Shown: piece by piece, positions 18,506 through 33,317 of the stretch
Layout of the letters: each line of letters opens with the position of its first letter
Numbering within the stretch: the first letter of the stretch is position 1
Assembly (NCBI RefSeq): GCF_001274635.1
Contig: NZ_LBGV01000001.1
Span: forward strand, 2,418,001-2,482,000
Reading direction: 5' to 3'
DNA: 64,000 nucleotides
DNA from: Persicobacter sp. CCB-QB2
GTDB lineage: Bacteria > Bacteroidota > Bacteroidia > Cytophagales > Cyclobacteriaceae
Notes under the pieces: model-generated
What the model was told of the DNA's origin: nothing
The model's input: only the letters and a program-made list of their open reading frames with translations
Databases searched by the model: none
Made by a program: the position numbers and the translations under genes

Positions 18506-19021
18506 ATGAACCAACCACTTATTCAAACCGGCCTTCGCTATGGAGCAGTCGGGGCCTTGGTATTTGCCACTTCTTATATTGCCCTGGCTTTTGTTTTTCA
18601 AAATCCCCCCATGGCGCTACCGGTACCATTGCATGCAATCATGCTTTTTGCTTTCATCTTTGGGGCAGCCTTTGAACTGCGAAGTCAGCAGGGAAAAAAG
18701 CTACACTTCTGGCAGGGAGGAGCAGTAGGCTTCATCACTTACTGCCTGATTGCAGTAGGCAGCTCACTAACCCTTTATTTGCTTTTTGAATATAACGATC
18801 AGGTCCTCCAAATGGAGAAAGAGGCCCGCTTGATGGTGGCCTCCACCAATATGGAACAGATCAATGATTATGCTGGGGTTGAAGGCTTTGCACAAGAAAA
18901 AATCGAGCAGATCAAAAGCTTTGGTGCCCTGAATCTGGCCATCAATAATTACCTTTGGACGAATCTTATTATTGGTTTATTTTTATCTATTTTTGTATCT
19001 TTCCTACTCAGAAAGAAATAA
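18506..19021 (+). CDS. DUF4199-like membrane protein
   Basis: A 171-residue protein with four predicted membrane segments, at about 12-32, 41-58, 69-92 and 145-165. A charged extracytoplasmic or cytoplasmic helix (MEKEARLMVASTNMEQINDYAGVEGFAQEKIEQIKSFG) lies between segments 3 and 4. This four-helix layout with a long charged loop before the last helix is that of the DUF4199 family, known mainly from Bacteroidota and without assigned function. It is followed 18 bp later by a second gene of the same layout, so the two probably form a pair, perhaps a hetero-oligomer (inference). Confidence 0.68.
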   Translation: MNQPLIQTGLRYGAVGALVFATSYIALAFVFQNPPMALPVPLHAIMLFAFIFGAAFELRSQQGKKLHFWQGGAVGFITYCLIAVGSSLTLYLLFEYNDQVLQMEKEARLMVASTNMEQINDYAGVEGFAQEKIEQIKSFGALNLAINNYLWTNLIIGLFLSIFVSFLLRKK

Positions 19022-19039
19022 ATCAATAAATTTTTAACT

Positions 19040-19594
19040 ATGATGACTGTTGAAAATCAAGAAACTGCCCAGGTAAACCCAAAACTGAAGCAGGAGTTAG
19101 GGGTTCGGTATGGAATAATGCTTTCCATCTTCGGTATTATCCTTGGCGTAGTGAGCCAAAACATTTCCGGAATGATGCCTAAATTTGGCGTTGGAATTGC
19201 GGGCCTGATCATTACCATTGTATTCTTTGTAATGGGGGCAAAGGCCTATAAAAAAGCAAATGGAGGAATGGCTAAGTTTGGAGATGTCTTTGCGATTATG
19301 GCCATTATGGCGGTCATCAGCACGGTGATCTCAACCGTTTTCTCTTACATTTATGTCATGTTCATAGATCCGGGTAGTGTAGATCGTCAAATTCAGGATA
19401 CCATCGGTATGTTGGAAGGATTTGGCACACCTGAGGCTGCCATTGATGAGGCCATCATTGAAATGGAAAAAATGAAAGACCCCGCTGGTTACGCTGTTAC
19501 CTTATTAAAAGGAGCTGCCGGAGGAATAATCTTCTACTTCATCATTGGAGCTATCGTATCGGCTATTGTTAAAAAGGAAGAGAAACCGGTATAA
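19040..19594 (+). CDS. DUF4199-family membrane protein
   Basis: A 184-residue protein with four membrane segments (about 24-42, 50-67, 82-110 and 152-173). A charged loop (DPGSVDRQIQDTIGMLEGFGTPEAAIDEAIIEMEKMKDPAG) precedes the last helix. It has the typical start of the family, with a soluble N-terminal tail and then RYGIMLSIFGIILG. The start could be the first or second codon of the ATG-ATG pair at 19040. It overlaps in design with the preceding gene but is clearly diverged, pointing to an old tandem duplication. A strong terminator follows. Confidence 0.75.
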   Translation: MMTVENQETAQVNPKLKQELGVRYGIMLSIFGIILGVVSQNISGMMPKFGVGIAGLIITIVFFVMGAKAYKKANGGMAKFGDVFAIMAIMAVISTVISTVFSYIYVMFIDPGSVDRQIQDTIGMLEGFGTPEAAIDEAIIEMEKMKDPAGYAVTLLKGAAGGIIFYFIIGAIVSAIVKKEEKPV

Positions 19595-20252: not shown

Positions 20253-20319
20253 TACACCGTAGATTCAGGTAATTGCCTTAAGCAACTCCATTTTCAGCTC
20301 GTTAAAATTGGTTTAGCCA

Positions 20320-20445
20320 ATTTCGTTAGACTTGCTTTCTCCTCAATCATCTGCTTCCTTGGAAAAAATTGAATTAGGAAACGAATCCTTCCTTTTTCCT
20401 GCATTGCCGCTAAAGGAGGCTTTTAGCCTTCACAATCCGGCTTAA
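20320..20445 (+). repeat. MITE-like repeat, forward copy
   Basis: Contains TTAGACTTGCTTTCTCCTC, ATCTGCTTCCTTGGAAAA, ATTGCCGCTAAAGGAGG and the terminal AATCCGGCTTA. With the copy at 20131 it forms a direct tandem about 190 bp apart. Confidence 0.65.
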
Positions 20446-20510
20446 AGCCTGCCTCATTCGGGCTACCTCCCGCCTACCACAGGCCCATGCAAGGACGTCA
20501 ATTCGGCAGA

Positions 20511-20612
20511 GGGATAGAGGGATTGCGAAGCTCTTTTTTGCAGCCTAAAGGCGTAGCGGCTCGCAAAAAAAGCGACTCCCGAAAGCCCGACCGACGTCAG
20601 GAGGGCTGCCCC
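20511..20612 (+). repeat. Structured intergenic element (GGGATAGAGGG-hairpin-CCCGAAAGCCCGACCGA), copy 1
   Basis: Order: GGGATAGAGGG; a spacer; hairpin CTTTTTTGC-AGCC / GGCT-CGCAAAAAAAG; then CCCGAAAGCCCGACCGA, a variable loop and GAGGGCTGCCCC. The second copy (53006-53122, minus strand) has the same flanks but different hairpin arms that still pair. It sits just before the terminator of the convergent GH14 gene. It is not protein-coding. Whether it is an RNA or a DNA site is unknown. Confidence 0.6.
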
Positions 20613-20653
20613 TAAAAAAAAGCTCCGATAAGCCTATGTTACCGGAGCGCTTA
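20613..20653 (-). terminator. Terminator of the tandem GH14 gene
   Basis: On the minus strand GCTCCGGTA...TATCGGAGC forms the stem and is followed by T8. Confidence 0.78.
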
Positions 20654-20669
20654 CATTTTATTCCTTTTT

Positions 20670-23432
20670 TTATCCCAGCTTACGGATCAGCTCTTTAAAT
20701 CTACTGAAGCCGTATTCGGTATCCAGCAGGTTCTTAATCCGAAGAATGGTCAGTCCATCATAGCCATTGGTTCGGGTCAGGGCGCGTTCCATTTGCGACC
20801 AGCCTTCCCCGGTGGAGAGTTCATAGGTGGTGGCATTCTCGCCGGCCAGATTAATTTTCAATTCTCCGGCAGCATCGGCCACCCAGGTTACCAGGTCTTC
20901 TGCTCGGGAGAAGCCTTCATGGTCTTTATTGAATTTCTCCAGACAGGTGAAGTGAACCACCAGACGATCCCGATCTTCCTTATCAATTAAGATGTTAAGC
21001 ATCTCCAGGTACTCCCGCTGATTGCTACTGTTCATATGGGGATGTGCATTCACCAGGCCGGCGGTCACCTCAGAGACGCGAGGCATTTGTGGGTTGGAAA
21101 TATTCCAGTGCACTCCGGCAATTTTGAAACCAAGTGGAGTTAAACCAAAGTGTTCCCCGGAAAAGACGTCCAGGGCCATCTTTAAAATTCTCCGACCGTG
21201 CAACAATAAAGAACTGTGGTACCAATTGATCAAATCACGACCGGCAACGGTCTTGAAGTACTGTTGTTCCTCAAAAAAAGCATCCGGATCTTTAGGCATT
21301 ACAACCTCTTCAAAGCCCAGCAGCTTGGTATCCCAATGGGTATTCAGCTCCTGAATATTGCTATATTGTTTCTCCAGATAGCGGCGATAATCCTCCACCG
21401 CCAGACGACTGTAACACTGCAGGGTTCCGCGGTTAGGATAATCTCCCCAGTCATGGGAATTATAAGAAGGATAACGCAGCTCTCCTGCAGGCCCGCAGCT
21501 GATGTTGATCTCCGCGGTCATGTCTTCATAAGCCTTAAAGCGCTCGCGGAAAGCTGCCATGAAGTTCTGGTAATAGGGCATAACATATTCATCCGCCCAC
21601 AGGGACACATACTCCACCGAAACAGCGCCGGACTCACTGACATACTGAATATCCGAAAGAGACAATTCCGGGTTCTTTTGCAACAACTCTCCCCACAACC
21701 AGACCGGCGTCCACTGGGTAAAGTCATCATTCACATTACCTCCTGCCTGATGGAAGGAGAGAATCGGCACCCAGTCCAGCCCATTAAGGCGAATAAGTTG
21801 CACCACTTTGTCATAATAACTCCAATCAAAATGGTGCGCTCCCTGCTGCTGTACCAATCCCCACCAAACGTCGATGGAAACAGCTTCCACTCCAGCATCC
21901 TTCATCAGACGAAGTTGTCGATCAAACTCCTGCCAGTTATCACGCTGGATCATGCGGCGATCATTGGCTGCAGATAAATGCAAGGGCCCCATCACCCGGA
22001 AAGACTTCCGCTTCACAGGAGAAAAAGCCTTTTGGCTTCTGGCCTGCTCCAGCATGCGATGCAGGCGACTGTTGGCCAGTTCGTTTTCAAAAATGCTGCG
22101 CAGGGAGATTACATTCAGCCCGTCATATTCGGCAGTACCAAACATGGCCTTCTCTAGCTGATTCCAGCCTACATTATCAAACAGCCCACCTTTGGTGCCG
22201 TTCTCGGCCACCACGCGCATTCCCAGACGATGAGTAGCCTCTGCCACCCAACGGCTAAGATCTTCCGCACGGGAGAATCCTTTATAATCTTTATTTTCTT
22301 TTTCTACGCATGTAATGTGCACCACCGTTTGATTCCTGAAACGCTCGGGCACTATACCTTCCAGTGTTCGGTAATATTCACGCTGATCACCAATATCCAG
22401 TGCTGCATGAGAAGCGATAATACCCGCGGTTACCTCGGCTACCCTTGGCATGCTGAGGTCACTAATCTTCCAATGCACTGCAGGCAGACGGAAACCGACC
22501 TTGGCTTTATTGAAGGGTTCATGACGGAAGACATCGAAAGTCATCTCCAGCATTTTTCTACCATGATTAATCAGCTCTCCATTATACCAGCTGCTAAAAT
22601 CACGACCAAACTGGGTTTCAATATATTGCTTGCCCTCAAAAATATCATGCTCCGGGCAGGGCAACTTCACCGCAGCCCAATTCTCCCATTCTGTACCGTA
22701 GGCTTGATTTACGGCTTCCAAAGTGCCATAATTCTCCAATAACCAGGACTGCCAGCTTCGATAGGCCGGTTGAGAATAACATTGAAGAGTGCCGCGATTA
22801 GGGTAAGCACCCCAGTCGTGGAAGTTGAAGCTGGGGTAGCGCAGCTCCCCATTAGGTCCCATTCCGACCATGATTTTGGGAATATTGATCCCCAGTGGCC
22901 GAAAAGTTTCCCGGAAGCTTTTCATCACATTACGGTATAGGGGCAGGGCATAGTCATCCACCCAAAGCGACAACATTTCAAAGGAAGAATCTCCGGTTTC
23001 GGACACATACTTCAAATCACTAAGACGCTGCAAGCCCGGCTCACGGGTAAGCAAATACCCCCACACCCATTCCGGTATGGGCTGCATGTAGGCAAAGTTC
23101 TCCACATCTTCCGGATTGGCAGCCTGAAAGTGAAAGCTGAACTCCGGCACAAAGCCTATCCGGTTATCCTTCAGGATTTCGGCAATCTTCAGATAATAGG
23201 ACCAGTTAAAGGCGATATCAGAATCGGGATCTCTTAAATCCACATTGGCTTCCGGCTCTACGGTGGCCCAGGAAATGGGCACAACGACCGCGTCTACTCC
23301 CATTTCTGCTAAAGATCTCGTCCATTGTTCGAAAAGACGCCAATCCTCCTGATTGAGAATAGCACTTTCCGCATATAATCTCACACTCAGTGGTGCGGTT
23401 ACTTCAAAAGTTTTTCTTTTTGGGGTACTCAT
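20670..23432 (-). CDS. Tandem glycoside hydrolase family 14 (beta-amylase) protein
   Basis: A 920-residue protein with two full GH14 domains (about 8-460 and 476-918) and no signal peptide, so probably cytoplasmic. Beta-amylases cut maltose from non-reducing ends of alpha-1,4-glucans. Domain 2 keeps the family hallmarks: VSIDVWWGLV, the flap SFHQAGGNVNDD (559-570), the general acid in GPAGELRYPSY (E651) and the general base in AGENA (E865). Domain 1 keeps both glutamates (E196 in GPNGELRYPSF, E410 in VVAEN). But it has VVVPISWATV where the substrate-binding Asp normally sits and SFHFQAANPED in place of the HQ.GGN flap. Domain 1 may thus bind rather than cleave, or have altered specificity. 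With glgX at the left edge it suggests intracellular glycogen turnover. GH14 is uncommon in bacteria and a fused pair looks unusual. Confidence 0.87.
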   Translation of the reverse strand: MSTPKRKTFEVTAPLSVRLYAESAILNQEDWRLFEQWTRSLAEMGVDAVVVPISWATVEPEANVDLRDPDSDIAFNWSYYLKIAEILKDNRIGFVPEFSFHFQAANPEDVENFAYMQPIPEWVWGYLLTREPGLQRLSDLKYVSETGDSSFEMLSLWVDDYALPLYRNVMKSFRETFRPLGINIPKIMVGMGPNGELRYPSFNFHDWGAYPNRGTLQCYSQPAYRSWQSWLLENYGTLEAVNQAYGTEWENWAAVKLPCPEHDIFEGKQYIETQFGRDFSSWYNGELINHGRKMLEMTFDVFRHEPFNKAKVGFRLPAVHWKISDLSMPRVAEVTAGIIASHAALDIGDQREYYRTLEGIVPERFRNQTVVHITCVEKENKDYKGFSRAEDLSRWVAEATHRLGMRVVAENGTKGGLFDNVGWNQLEKAMFGTAEYDGLNVISLRSIFENELANSRLHRMLEQARSQKAFSPVKRKSFRVMGPLHLSAANDRRMIQRDNWQEFDRQLRLMKDAGVEAVSIDVWWGLVQQQGAHHFDWSYYDKVVQLIRLNGLDWVPILSFHQAGGNVNDDFTQWTPVWLWGELLQKNPELSLSDIQYVSESGAVSVEYVSLWADEYVMPYYQNFMAAFRERFKAYEDMTAEINISCGPAGELRYPSYNSHDWGDYPNRGTLQCYSRLAVEDYRRYLEKQYSNIQELNTHWDTKLLGFEEVVMPKDPDAFFEEQQYFKTVAGRDLINWYHSSLLLHGRRILKMALDVFSGEHFGLTPLGFKIAGVHWNISNPQMPRVSEVTAGLVNAHPHMNSSNQREYLEMLNILIDKEDRDRLVVHFTCLEKFNKDHEGFSRAEDLVTWVADAAGELKINLAGENATTYELSTGEGWSQMERALTRTNGYDGLTILRIKNLLDTEYGFSRFKELIRKLG

Positions 23433-23835
23433 GGCTATAATTATTTTAGTACCTGGAATTGATTCCTCCCCTTCTATTACACAAAGCTTTCCTTCTTTCG
23501 ATCATATCCACTATGAACCAATTTCGTTGGGAATTTAACGGAACAATAAGAGAAAAAGGAGCTAATACATCAAAATTTATAGCAATTATTTGCCCCCCTA
23601 AGCACATCTTTAACAAGCATTTAAACAACACTTAAAAGGCTCATAATTCTTCCCGCTTTATTTGAGGCGATTTTTGAAATTCAACAATTTCACAACAAGG
23701 GTTTTTCTCCTTTTTTGCACTATTATCCATACAGCTTCTGGCTTTCAGGAGAAGACAATTATTTAATAAAATAAGGCGCACAAAAATTTCGCATTTTATG
23801 TCTAACTTACCGGTCCAAAACTCATTGAACGAAAT
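23433..23835. other. Divergent intergenic region
   Basis: About 400 bp between the GH14 gene and the small membrane-protein gene. Mostly A/T-rich; no repeat copy, RNA or strong hairpin recognised. It must contain both promoters. ORFs crossing it are not protein-like. Confidence 0.45.
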
Positions 23836-24285
23836 ATGACACTTAAAGACCGCCCAAGCCTTAAAACTGATCGCAGTTATCAGAAGGCTATTTTCAAACT
23901 GGCGATCCTTATTGAACAGCTTCTGAGAAGAACACCGAGTGATCTGATTATTCAGGAGATGAACAGGCATGTTGAACTACTGAATCAATTGGATGATCAG
24001 GATAAAGGACTCTGCCGTAAGATTAACAAAAGCTACCGCCAATTGACCCGCCTGGCTAAGAAAGAAATGAAACTCTACACCGAGGACTATCACCAAAACC
24101 TGTACTCCGGCACCTGTTGCGGATTGATTGGTTTACCCTTGGGCTTTGTCGGATTGCTGTTAAGCGGTAAGCTTGCCTTTTTGTTGATCGCCCTTCCTGT
24201 AGGGATAGCGGTGGGATTTATTCGTGGACATTATGTAGACCGAAAGGTGCGTAGAGAGGGGCGATTAATTATGACAACAGCATAA
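23836..24285 (+). CDS. Small membrane protein with soluble helical N-terminus, unknown
   Basis: A 149-residue protein. The first 90 residues are soluble, basic and probably helical (YQKAIFKLAILIEQLLRRTPSDLIIQEMNRHVELLNQ). Two adjacent membrane segments follow (about 93-111 and 113-130: GLIGLPLGFVGLLLSGKLAFLLIALPVGIAVGFIRG), then a short basic tail. The Gly-rich double-helix hairpin could insert as a loop. I recognise no family. Coding is supported by length, composition and a start after a normal intergenic region. Confidence 0.6.
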   Translation: MTLKDRPSLKTDRSYQKAIFKLAILIEQLLRRTPSDLIIQEMNRHVELLNQLDDQDKGLCRKINKSYRQLTRLAKKEMKLYTEDYHQNLYSGTCCGLIGLPLGFVGLLLSGKLAFLLIALPVGIAVGFIRGHYVDRKVRREGRLIMTTA

Positions 24286-32169: not shown

Positions 32170-33272
32170 CTAAAGCGCACCCTTGGTGGATGGCAATTGA
32201 TTTAAAGTCTGCGGATCGCGGGCCACGGCCATTTTAATTGCCTTCGCAAAACCTTTAAAGATAGCCTCTATCTTATGATGCTCATTATCTCCCTCTGCTT
32301 TAATGTTCAGATTCGTCAAGGAAGTATCTGAGAAAGACTTGAAGAAATGGAACACCATTTCTGTTGGCAAATCGCCTACTTTCTCCCTTTTGAATTCCGC
32401 CTCCCAGATCATCCACGGGCGCCCACCAAAATCAATGGCCACCTGCGCCAGGCAGTCATCCATAGGCAATAGAAATCCATAGCGATAAATTCCCATCTTA
32501 TCTCCCAAAGCCTGACGGAAACATTCCCCAGGGCCAGCCCCGTATCTTCAATGGTGTGGTGTTCATCAATATGCAAATCACCCTTCACCTTTACGGTAAG
32601 GTCGCAATTACCATGACGCTTCACCTGATCCAGCATATGATCAAAGAACGGCAGACCGGTATCAATACTCCCCTGTCCACTGCCATCCAGATTCAGCTCT
32701 ATGAAGATATCCGTCTCATTGGTCTTACGATGAACGCTGGCCTTCCGGTCCGGCAGGCGAAGAAAGCGGTAAATCTCATCCCAGTTGGTGGTAGTCAGCA
32801 CCGCTCTTTCATCTTTGAATTCGTCCAGCAATAAGATCCCTTTCGCCCCTAAATTTTCCGCCAGCTGAATGTCTGACACCCGGTCTCCCAGCACAAAACT
32901 GTTCTCCAGATCATATTCCTCAGAAAAATACTTTTTCAGCAATCCGGTTCCCGGTTTGCGGGTATCAGCTCCCTCATGCTCAAAAGTGCGGTCAATGCAA
33001 ACCTCGGCAAAGTGAATGTTCTCCGCCTCCAGCATCTCCATCATCTTATTATGGGCGGGCCAAAAGGTATCCTCAGGGAAAGAAAGCGTCCCCAGTCCAT
33101 CCTGATTAGTCACCATTACCAGCTCATAATCCAGCTCCTCTGCTATCTTTCTGAGGTTTGACAATGCCTTGGGCAAAAAAGCCAGTTTTTCCAGAGAATC
33201 AACCTGTTCGTCTTCAATAGGCTCCACGATAATGGTGCCATCTCGGTCTATAAATAATACTTTCTTTTTCAT
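32170..33272 (-). pseudogene. hisB: Histidinol-phosphatase / imidazoleglycerol-phosphate dehydratase, split by a frameshift
   Basis: Starts at ATG 33272 ([14 protein letters not shown]). The N-terminal HAD phosphatase domain has [14 protein letters not shown] and [14 protein letters not shown]. The C-terminal dehydratase has [39 protein letters not shown] and, in the next frame, [25 protein letters not shown] and [20 protein letters not shown]. Adding one G to GGGG at 32526-32529 restores [21 protein letters not shown], as in normal HisB. The two activities are steps 7 (IGP dehydration) and 9 (histidinol-P hydrolysis) of His synthesis. With intact hisG, hisD and hisC upstream, an assembly error is likely; otherwise the cell would need external histidine. 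Confidence 0.85.
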
Positions 33273-33317
33273 AACGTTTACCTGCATCGGGAAGTGTCTC
33301 AGCTCCCCCATGTGCTT

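Follow-up and report, generated by a model that had tools for sequence, protein, structure and literature searches.

The closest described parallels to the protein reported here are plant beta-amylases that have lost their activity. In the cited sections of one study, BAM9 carries a Gln in place of the catalytic base Glu, lacks the flexible loop and has no measured activity, and the authors propose a role for it as an activator of starch breakdown (PMC8774843). The same sections report no strong binding of recombinant BAM9 to starch granules, whereas the cited part of a review lists both BAM1 and starch granules as interaction partners of BAM9 (PMC12892837); on granule binding, the two reports thus conflict. 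The review passage also describes binding of amylose and amylopectin by inactive BAM4, and, in the cited part of a third paper, the catalytic acid Glu is conserved even among inactive plant BAMs (PMC6394054). Here, we describe a protein from Persicobacter sp. CCB-QB2 in which two domains of the beta-amylase family GH14 are fused in one chain. It is encoded in a 64,000-nucleotide stretch of contig NZ_LBGV01000001.1 (positions 2,418,001 to 2,482,000), referred to as the window, in which it and its two domains are located as follows:

20670..23432, minus strand, tandem GH14 protein of 920 amino acids (open reading frame [ORF] and Pfam match)
22023..23432, minus strand, domain 1 (amino acids 1 to 470), GH14 fold with an altered active site, a putative pseudo-beta-amylase (PF01373, model and Foldseek)
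20673..22022, minus strand, domain 2 (amino acids 471 to 920), intact GH14 beta-amylase domain (PF01373, active-site positions and VIA-align)

The ORF begins with ATG and holds both domains in a single frame. With a Pfam cutoff of 27 bits for GH14 (PF01373), domain 1 scored 185.1 bits (E value of 2.7e-54) and domain 2 scored 321.1 bits (E value of 1.4e-95), the latter over the full length of the profile (positions 10 to 391 of 402). This bears out a preliminary description of the window, made from the sequence alone, which had proposed two GH14 domains fused in one cytoplasmic protein. GH42, which that description had named as an example of a competing family, was rejected, as PF02449 exceeds its own cutoff of 21 bits, yet with only 27.1 and 37.0 bits. 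The two domains share 39% identity over 462 alignment columns. A model of domain 1 alone had a predicted template modelling score (pTM) of 0.87 and a mean predicted local distance difference test score (pLDDT) of 82, and the first 31 Foldseek hits to it were all beta-amylases, the best being 3voc from P. polymyxa (E value of 6.5e-27). Domain 1 is therefore assigned to GH14 both by the profile cutoff and by its modelled fold. A search of the PDB with the full-length model covered mainly amino acids 469 to 920, and the assessment of domain 1 therefore used its separate model. Domain 2 of the full-length model aligned with 1vep by VIA-align with a Z score of 38.2 and a root mean square deviation of 2.8 over 403 residues (amino acids 474 to 919).

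No signal-like stretch was found at the N terminus of the 920-amino-acid protein and no strongly hydrophobic 19-residue segment along its chain. The protein is thus apparently cytosolic, as had been suggested, and the absence of a signal-like stretch ruled out a secreted starch enzyme. A chance or assembly fusion was also ruled out, since the same fused frame recurs in two congeners (G001 and G002, both with a protein of 919 amino acids) and in other genera. The source genome (3.87 Mb) is 91.5% complete.

For a comparison of the active sites, domains from 27 tandem proteins were aligned with two PDB chains and three single-domain proteins and numbered as in the Bacillus cereus beta-amylase, in which D49, E172, E367, K287 and R397 presumably have the roles by which we refer to them. 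Residue letters were checked against 1vep. The 27 tandem proteins had been chosen as open frames with both domains, so that the absence of stop codons from them is no evidence of function. In domain 2, all 17 checked active-site positions are retained in 27 of 27 proteins. The acid and base Glu, the substrate-binding Asp, the GGN of the flap, the inner-loop Thr (T829) and the subsite Arg (R898) are all present in the window protein and invariant in the set:

21870..21872, minus strand, D521, substrate-binding Asp of domain 2 (active-site alignment)
21726..21749, minus strand, flap of domain 2, amino acids 562 to 569, QAGGNVND (active-site alignment)
21480..21482, minus strand, E651, catalytic acid of domain 2 (active-site alignment)
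20838..20840, minus strand, E865, catalytic base of domain 2 (active-site alignment)

These residues make domain 2 very probably a working beta-amylase, and the activity that the preliminary description had attributed to it is predicted here as well. The same description had noted that domain 1 lacks the Asp and the HQxGGN flap, and this holds: P52 takes the position held by D521 in domain 2, and the flap is altered. The positions in question are as follows:

23277..23279, minus strand, P52 in domain 1, aligned with the substrate-binding Asp D49 of B. cereus (Pro in 27/27 tandem proteins)
23085..23129, minus strand, amino acids 102 to 116 of domain 1, replacing the GGNVxD flap and a low-confidence loop in both models (alignment and models)
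22845..22847, minus strand, E196, catalytic-acid position of domain 1 (retained in 23/27)
22203..22205, minus strand, E410, catalytic-base position of domain 1 (retained in 17/27)
22104..22106, minus strand, S443 in domain 1, aligned with R397 (Arg absent from 27/27)

Across the tandem proteins, the R397 position of domain 1 is occupied by Asp (19 proteins), Asn (5) or Ser (3) and the K287 position by Arg (19) or Asn (8). The flap is altered or shortened throughout, with the G93 column occupied in only three proteins and never by Gly, Asn at N94 in six and Asp at D97 in nine; counts near the flap, H89, K287 to W293 and T330 depend on the alignment, and the H89 column shifted between alignments. 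Domain 1 thus lacks a complete active site (Asp, flap, Arg and both Glu residues) and is therefore treated as a GH14-fold domain and not classed as an active beta-amylase; on its residues, it cannot be a standard beta-amylase. The uniform Pro points to an early, ancestral change, which would have been followed by further losses in some lineages.

It had further been stated that domain 1 keeps both catalytic Glu residues. This is correct for the window protein (E196 and E410) and does not extend to the family, in which the acid Glu is lost in four proteins (to Asp in three and to Gln in one) and the base Glu in 10 (to Gln in eight and to Gly in two), in two lineages. In several respects, domain 1 resembles BAM9 and BAM4: it has the GH14 fold, its flexible loop is missing or not conserved, also in the window protein, and the acid Glu is usually kept. 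The loss of the base Glu, most often to Gln, is a further likeness to BAM9, although in the window protein this residue is still present. Unlike BAM9 and BAM4, which are separate plastid proteins, domain 1 is covalently fused to a putatively active enzyme, and in bacteria.

Domain 2 resembles the bacterial single-domain beta-amylases of B. cereus (1b90 and 1vep) and P. polymyxa (3voc), matching 3voc over amino acids 497 to 906 with an E value of 4.6e-64. Two other known arrangements are related in part. By its structure title, the BAM1-LSF1-MDH starch degradation complex (PDB 8j5d) likewise combines an active plant beta-amylase with partner proteins, and the BZR1-type noncatalytic beta-amylases (BAM7 and BAM8) are likewise GH14 domains with a noncatalytic adaptation, according to a structure title (PDB 7upv) and the cited part of PMC6394054. 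Whereas the bacterial single-domain enzymes have one GH14 domain, the window protein has two. The partners in the BAM1-LSF1-MDH complex are not known to be GH14 domains, unlike those in the tandem protein, and in BAM7 and BAM8, GH14 is fused to a DNA binding domain and not to a second GH14 domain.

Domain 1 is under purifying selection, and it is more loosely constrained and evolves faster than domain 2. The ratio of nonsynonymous to synonymous substitution rates (dN/dS; NG86 method) was 0.04 to 0.11 in 6 of 11 pairs for domain 1 and 0.006 to 0.05 in 7 of 11 for domain 2, where the method yielded no dS in the remaining five and four comparisons, respectively, and several others were saturated. 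In all 11 pairs, dN was higher for domain 1 than for domain 2, by a factor of 1.6 to 4.8. Among 22 nonredundant rows, one residue occupies at least 90% of the rows in 28 columns of domain 1 and in 191 columns of domain 2; of the 28, 17 are Gly, Pro or Trp and one is the start Met. Residues typical of domain 1 are K141 (Gln in domain 2) and H420 and R456 (both variable in domain 2), of which the last is listed as a candidate contact:

22065..22067, minus strand, R456, candidate domain-1-specific contact (invariant in domain 1 in 22/22 nonredundant rows and variable in domain 2)

The tandem architecture is not unique to the source genome and is also found in other marine bacteria. In samples drawn from larger groups, with Bacillota and plants outside the sampling for tandem genes, 6 of 59 relatives matched GH14 at an E value of 0.001: the three genomes of the genus with the tandem protein, one family member with a single domain and two with partial matches. 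Seven of 395 genomes of the same phylum had any GH14 match, full length only in the source genome, and 3 of 295 genomes of Flammeovirga's class did, full length only in the Flammeovirga. Five ORFs behind partial matches were scanned; two encode GH42 proteins, two a partial GH14-like stretch with Ig domains and one such a stretch with an FGE-sulfatase domain. The protein with the FGE-sulfatase domain (L012:400-3159, from another Bacteroidota genome), whose GH14 match reaches 44.9 bits over profile positions 21 to 264 of 402, may be a relative of the GH14/GH42 group that has yet to be described.

A scan of named genomes with two peptide patterns from this clade, which may miss other tandem types, gave 12 loci, 9 of them tandem (one Persicobacter, five Flammeovirga and three Psychromonas) and 3 with a single domain (one Cytophagales metagenome-assembled genome and two Spirochaetes). 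The two Spirochaete proteins have a signal-like N terminus, unlike the Cytophagales single-domain protein and the tandem proteins. One single-domain gene with a signal-like N terminus (L035) has a GH77 gene on one side and an MFS transporter gene on the other, possibly a maltodextrin cluster unlike the surroundings of the tandem genes. In the order of Psychromonas, 25 of 295 sampled genomes matched; 22 of these, including the three Psychromonas, carry the tandem protein in one frame (862 to 952 amino acids), and the others have a single domain, a fragment with two stops and a match below the cutoff. In the phylum of Psychromonas, 10 of 398 genomes matched, 2 with tandem proteins (again from that order), 3 with one domain (one of them partial) and 5 weakly. 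Of the 13 matches from 198 genomes sampled in the Spirochaete phylum, 2 were single-domain proteins, 11 were partial or weak and none was tandem, and a search for plasmid or viral relatives of the tandem protein found none. The preliminary description of GH14 as a one-domain family, mostly of plants and some bacilli, was therefore too narrow. As for whether tandem GH14 proteins are already known in number, many are present in public genomes, and a phrase search of the open-licence literature found no described tandem, duplicated, two-domain or GH14-GH14 beta-amylase, although one may be described elsewhere; a table in the cited part of the genome paper on F. pacifica (PMC5385347) includes a single GH14 beta-amylase.

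In a tree of the domains, all domain 1 rows fall on one side of a branch with 100/99 support (22 versus 27 rows; in a smaller tree, 11 versus 16). The simplest reading is one fusion. The tree is consistent with this, and with subsequent inheritance and at least one transfer between Bacteroidota and Gammaproteobacteria, without proving it.

Our best explanation, in which our confidence is evenly balanced, is that an active intracellular beta-amylase (domain 2) is joined to a nonenzymatic pseudo-beta-amylase partner (domain 1) and that this single fusion has been kept by selection. Domain 2 would cut maltose from the nonreducing ends of glycogen or maltodextrin, as its intact active site suggests. 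Domain 1 would stem from a second GH14 copy that kept its barrel and not its complete site, and it may stabilise, position or regulate the active domain. Since some relatives lost a catalytic Glu and yet kept the fusion, catalysis is not the shared role of domain 1. The preliminary description had proposed an enzyme with a substrate-holding or altered-specificity partner; one intact and one altered site agree with an enzyme and a partner, but altered specificity or catalysis is not conserved family-wide, and a nonenzymatic partner fits better.

Several observations weigh against this explanation. Besides E196 and E410, the window domain 1 still has H101, H320-W321 and T374-C375, so that residual or altered activity of this domain is conceivable. 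The eight proteins with Gln at the base position (L044 to L051) are one cluster of close relatives, and both with Gly are from sister Psychromonas; once near-copies were dropped, 7 of 22 proteins lacked the base Glu and 4 of 22 lacked the acid Glu. The losses are thus few independent events, not 10 or 4, and this lowers our confidence. The tree is unrooted, and long branches meet in it. The full-length model reached a pTM of only 0.52 and no domain interface was seen; with the packing not reliable, an interface was not derived from it. GH14 genes can decay in the order of Psychromonas, as the fragment with two stops (G747) indicates. No starch or glycogen gene was present among the flanking ORFs scanned in the window and at loci L018, L019, L023 and L024, and the case for a role in glycogen metabolism therefore depends on genes in other parts of the genome. 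Finally, the source genome encodes an alpha-glucan-family phosphorylase (557 amino acids; TIGR02094, 447.8 bits), so that a beta-amylase is not the sole possible exit from glycogen.

The main rival holds that domain 1 is chiefly a glucan-holding module, in which the remains of the cleft keep glycogen branches near domain 2, much like a starch binding domain. Persicobacter domain 1 retains, besides both Glu residues, H101 and H320-W321, the GELRYPS motif, and the binding of amylose and amylopectin by BAM4 and the granule interaction cited for BAM9 provide precedents (cited part of PMC12892837). On the other hand, the Asp and Arg are absent from all 27 proteins and the flap is altered, few columns of domain 1 are strongly conserved, and recombinant BAM9 was not retained by starch granules in the cited sections of PMC8774843; we therefore regard this alternative as rather unlikely. 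A nonenzymatic partner is also preferred over an active domain 1 with altered specificity, which would act on another linkage, release a longer product or perform transfer in place of hydrolysis. Of the 27 proteins, 23 retain the acid Glu and 17 the base Glu, and the window protein retains both; this speaks for such an enzyme, as does an Asp-to-Pro change too uniform to be random, but lineages that kept the fusion after losing one or both Glu residues make it improbable as an activity of the family. That domain 1 might be a duplicate in decay, with no role and still awaiting deletion, would agree with its higher dN in every pair but is very improbable given a dN/dS far below 1 wherever it could be computed and the retention of the domain across two phyla, in at least three genera.

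With regard to gene content elsewhere, the source genome encodes a GH77 protein of 910 amino acids (L066:5596-8328) with two CBM_20 stretches and a GH77 match that is spread over 630 residues (amino acids 255 to 884) for 460 profile positions. Two N-terminal CBM20 domains followed by a GH77 domain that is interrupted by an insert are what we take to be the layout of plant DPE2, and the GH77 protein shares it. Plant DPE2 uses maltose made by beta-amylase. Activity of the bacterial protein on maltose is predicted from this layout, and the maltose released by domain 2 may thus be used by this putative 4-alpha-glucanotransferase. GH77 and a GT5-type match were present in all 10 genomes checked, tandem and single-domain alike. 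Full-length GT35 was present in five of the 10 (three Psychromonas and two Spirochaetes) and was not found in the other five (two Persicobacter, two Flammeovirga and the Cytophagales metagenome-assembled genome). The absence of a glycogen phosphorylase was dropped as a reason for having a beta-amylase, as the source genome has the TIGR02094-type phosphorylase. The best GT5 match in the source genome (L067:4900-5706; 268 amino acids) covers glycogen synthase in its N-terminal part only, and two Flammeovirga genomes have open frames of 272 amino acids in its place.

The scanned neighbours of the tandem gene in the window encode a dihydroorotase, a pair of DUF4199 proteins, a CPBP-type protease and an SDR protein. 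At the four loci named above, the 10 flanking ORFs encode alaS, an AraC regulator, a family-2 glycosyltransferase, mutS, a beta-lactamase-fold protein, a nucleotidyltransferase, deaD, a NifU-like protein, a phosphoribosyltransferase and an ABC ATPase. As no starch or glycogen gene is among these scanned ORFs, an operon or sugar-locus context was ruled out. A hairpin past the stop codon suggests that the tandem gene may be transcribed on its own:

20614..20648, minus strand, terminator-like hairpin of 10 pairs followed by 8 T, 21 bases past the stop codon (consensus match)

This hairpin is the longest of five stems in positions 20300 to 24000, where shuffled sequences average 4.2, and is thus a consensus match only. 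The two DUF4199 genes adjoin each other (18506 to 19594, plus strand), and a congener (L004) also has this pair next to its tandem gene. In four of five Flammeovirga loci, the first gene downstream of the tandem gene encodes an AraC-type regulator (L018:7580-8593, L020:7437-8429, L021:7437-8429 and L023:7568-8560), and the ORFs differ in the fifth (L019). Further along the window, a hisB-like ORF (32409 to 33311, minus strand) combines a HAD phosphatase with an IGPD match to only the first 47 of 144 positions, and the apparent remainder of IGPD lies in another frame just downstream; the frame break may be genuine or may reflect a sequencing error in the 91.5%-complete genome.

In summary, plant pseudo-beta-amylases are the nearest functional parallel, and by this analogy the tandem protein is best read as a one-chain counterpart of BAM9 or BAM4 beside an active BAM. 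More tentatively, it is possible that bacteria independently paired a pseudo- and an active beta-amylase in one chain, with domain 1 as an allosteric or scaffolding element that governs the beta-amylolysis of glycogen and is coupled to a plant-like maltose route through a DPE2-type GH77 protein in the cytosol. We infer an origin independent of the plant proteins with trees that hold no plant rows. The mechanism by which inactive plant beta-amylases affect starch breakdown is still unclear, and the bacterial protein makes this question directly testable, as it holds an altered and an intact domain at a fixed 1:1 ratio and its relatives show a graded loss of catalytic residues. The tandem gene also suggests that marine bacteria may have an exit from glycogen via beta-amylase and maltose, beside the usual phosphorylase route.

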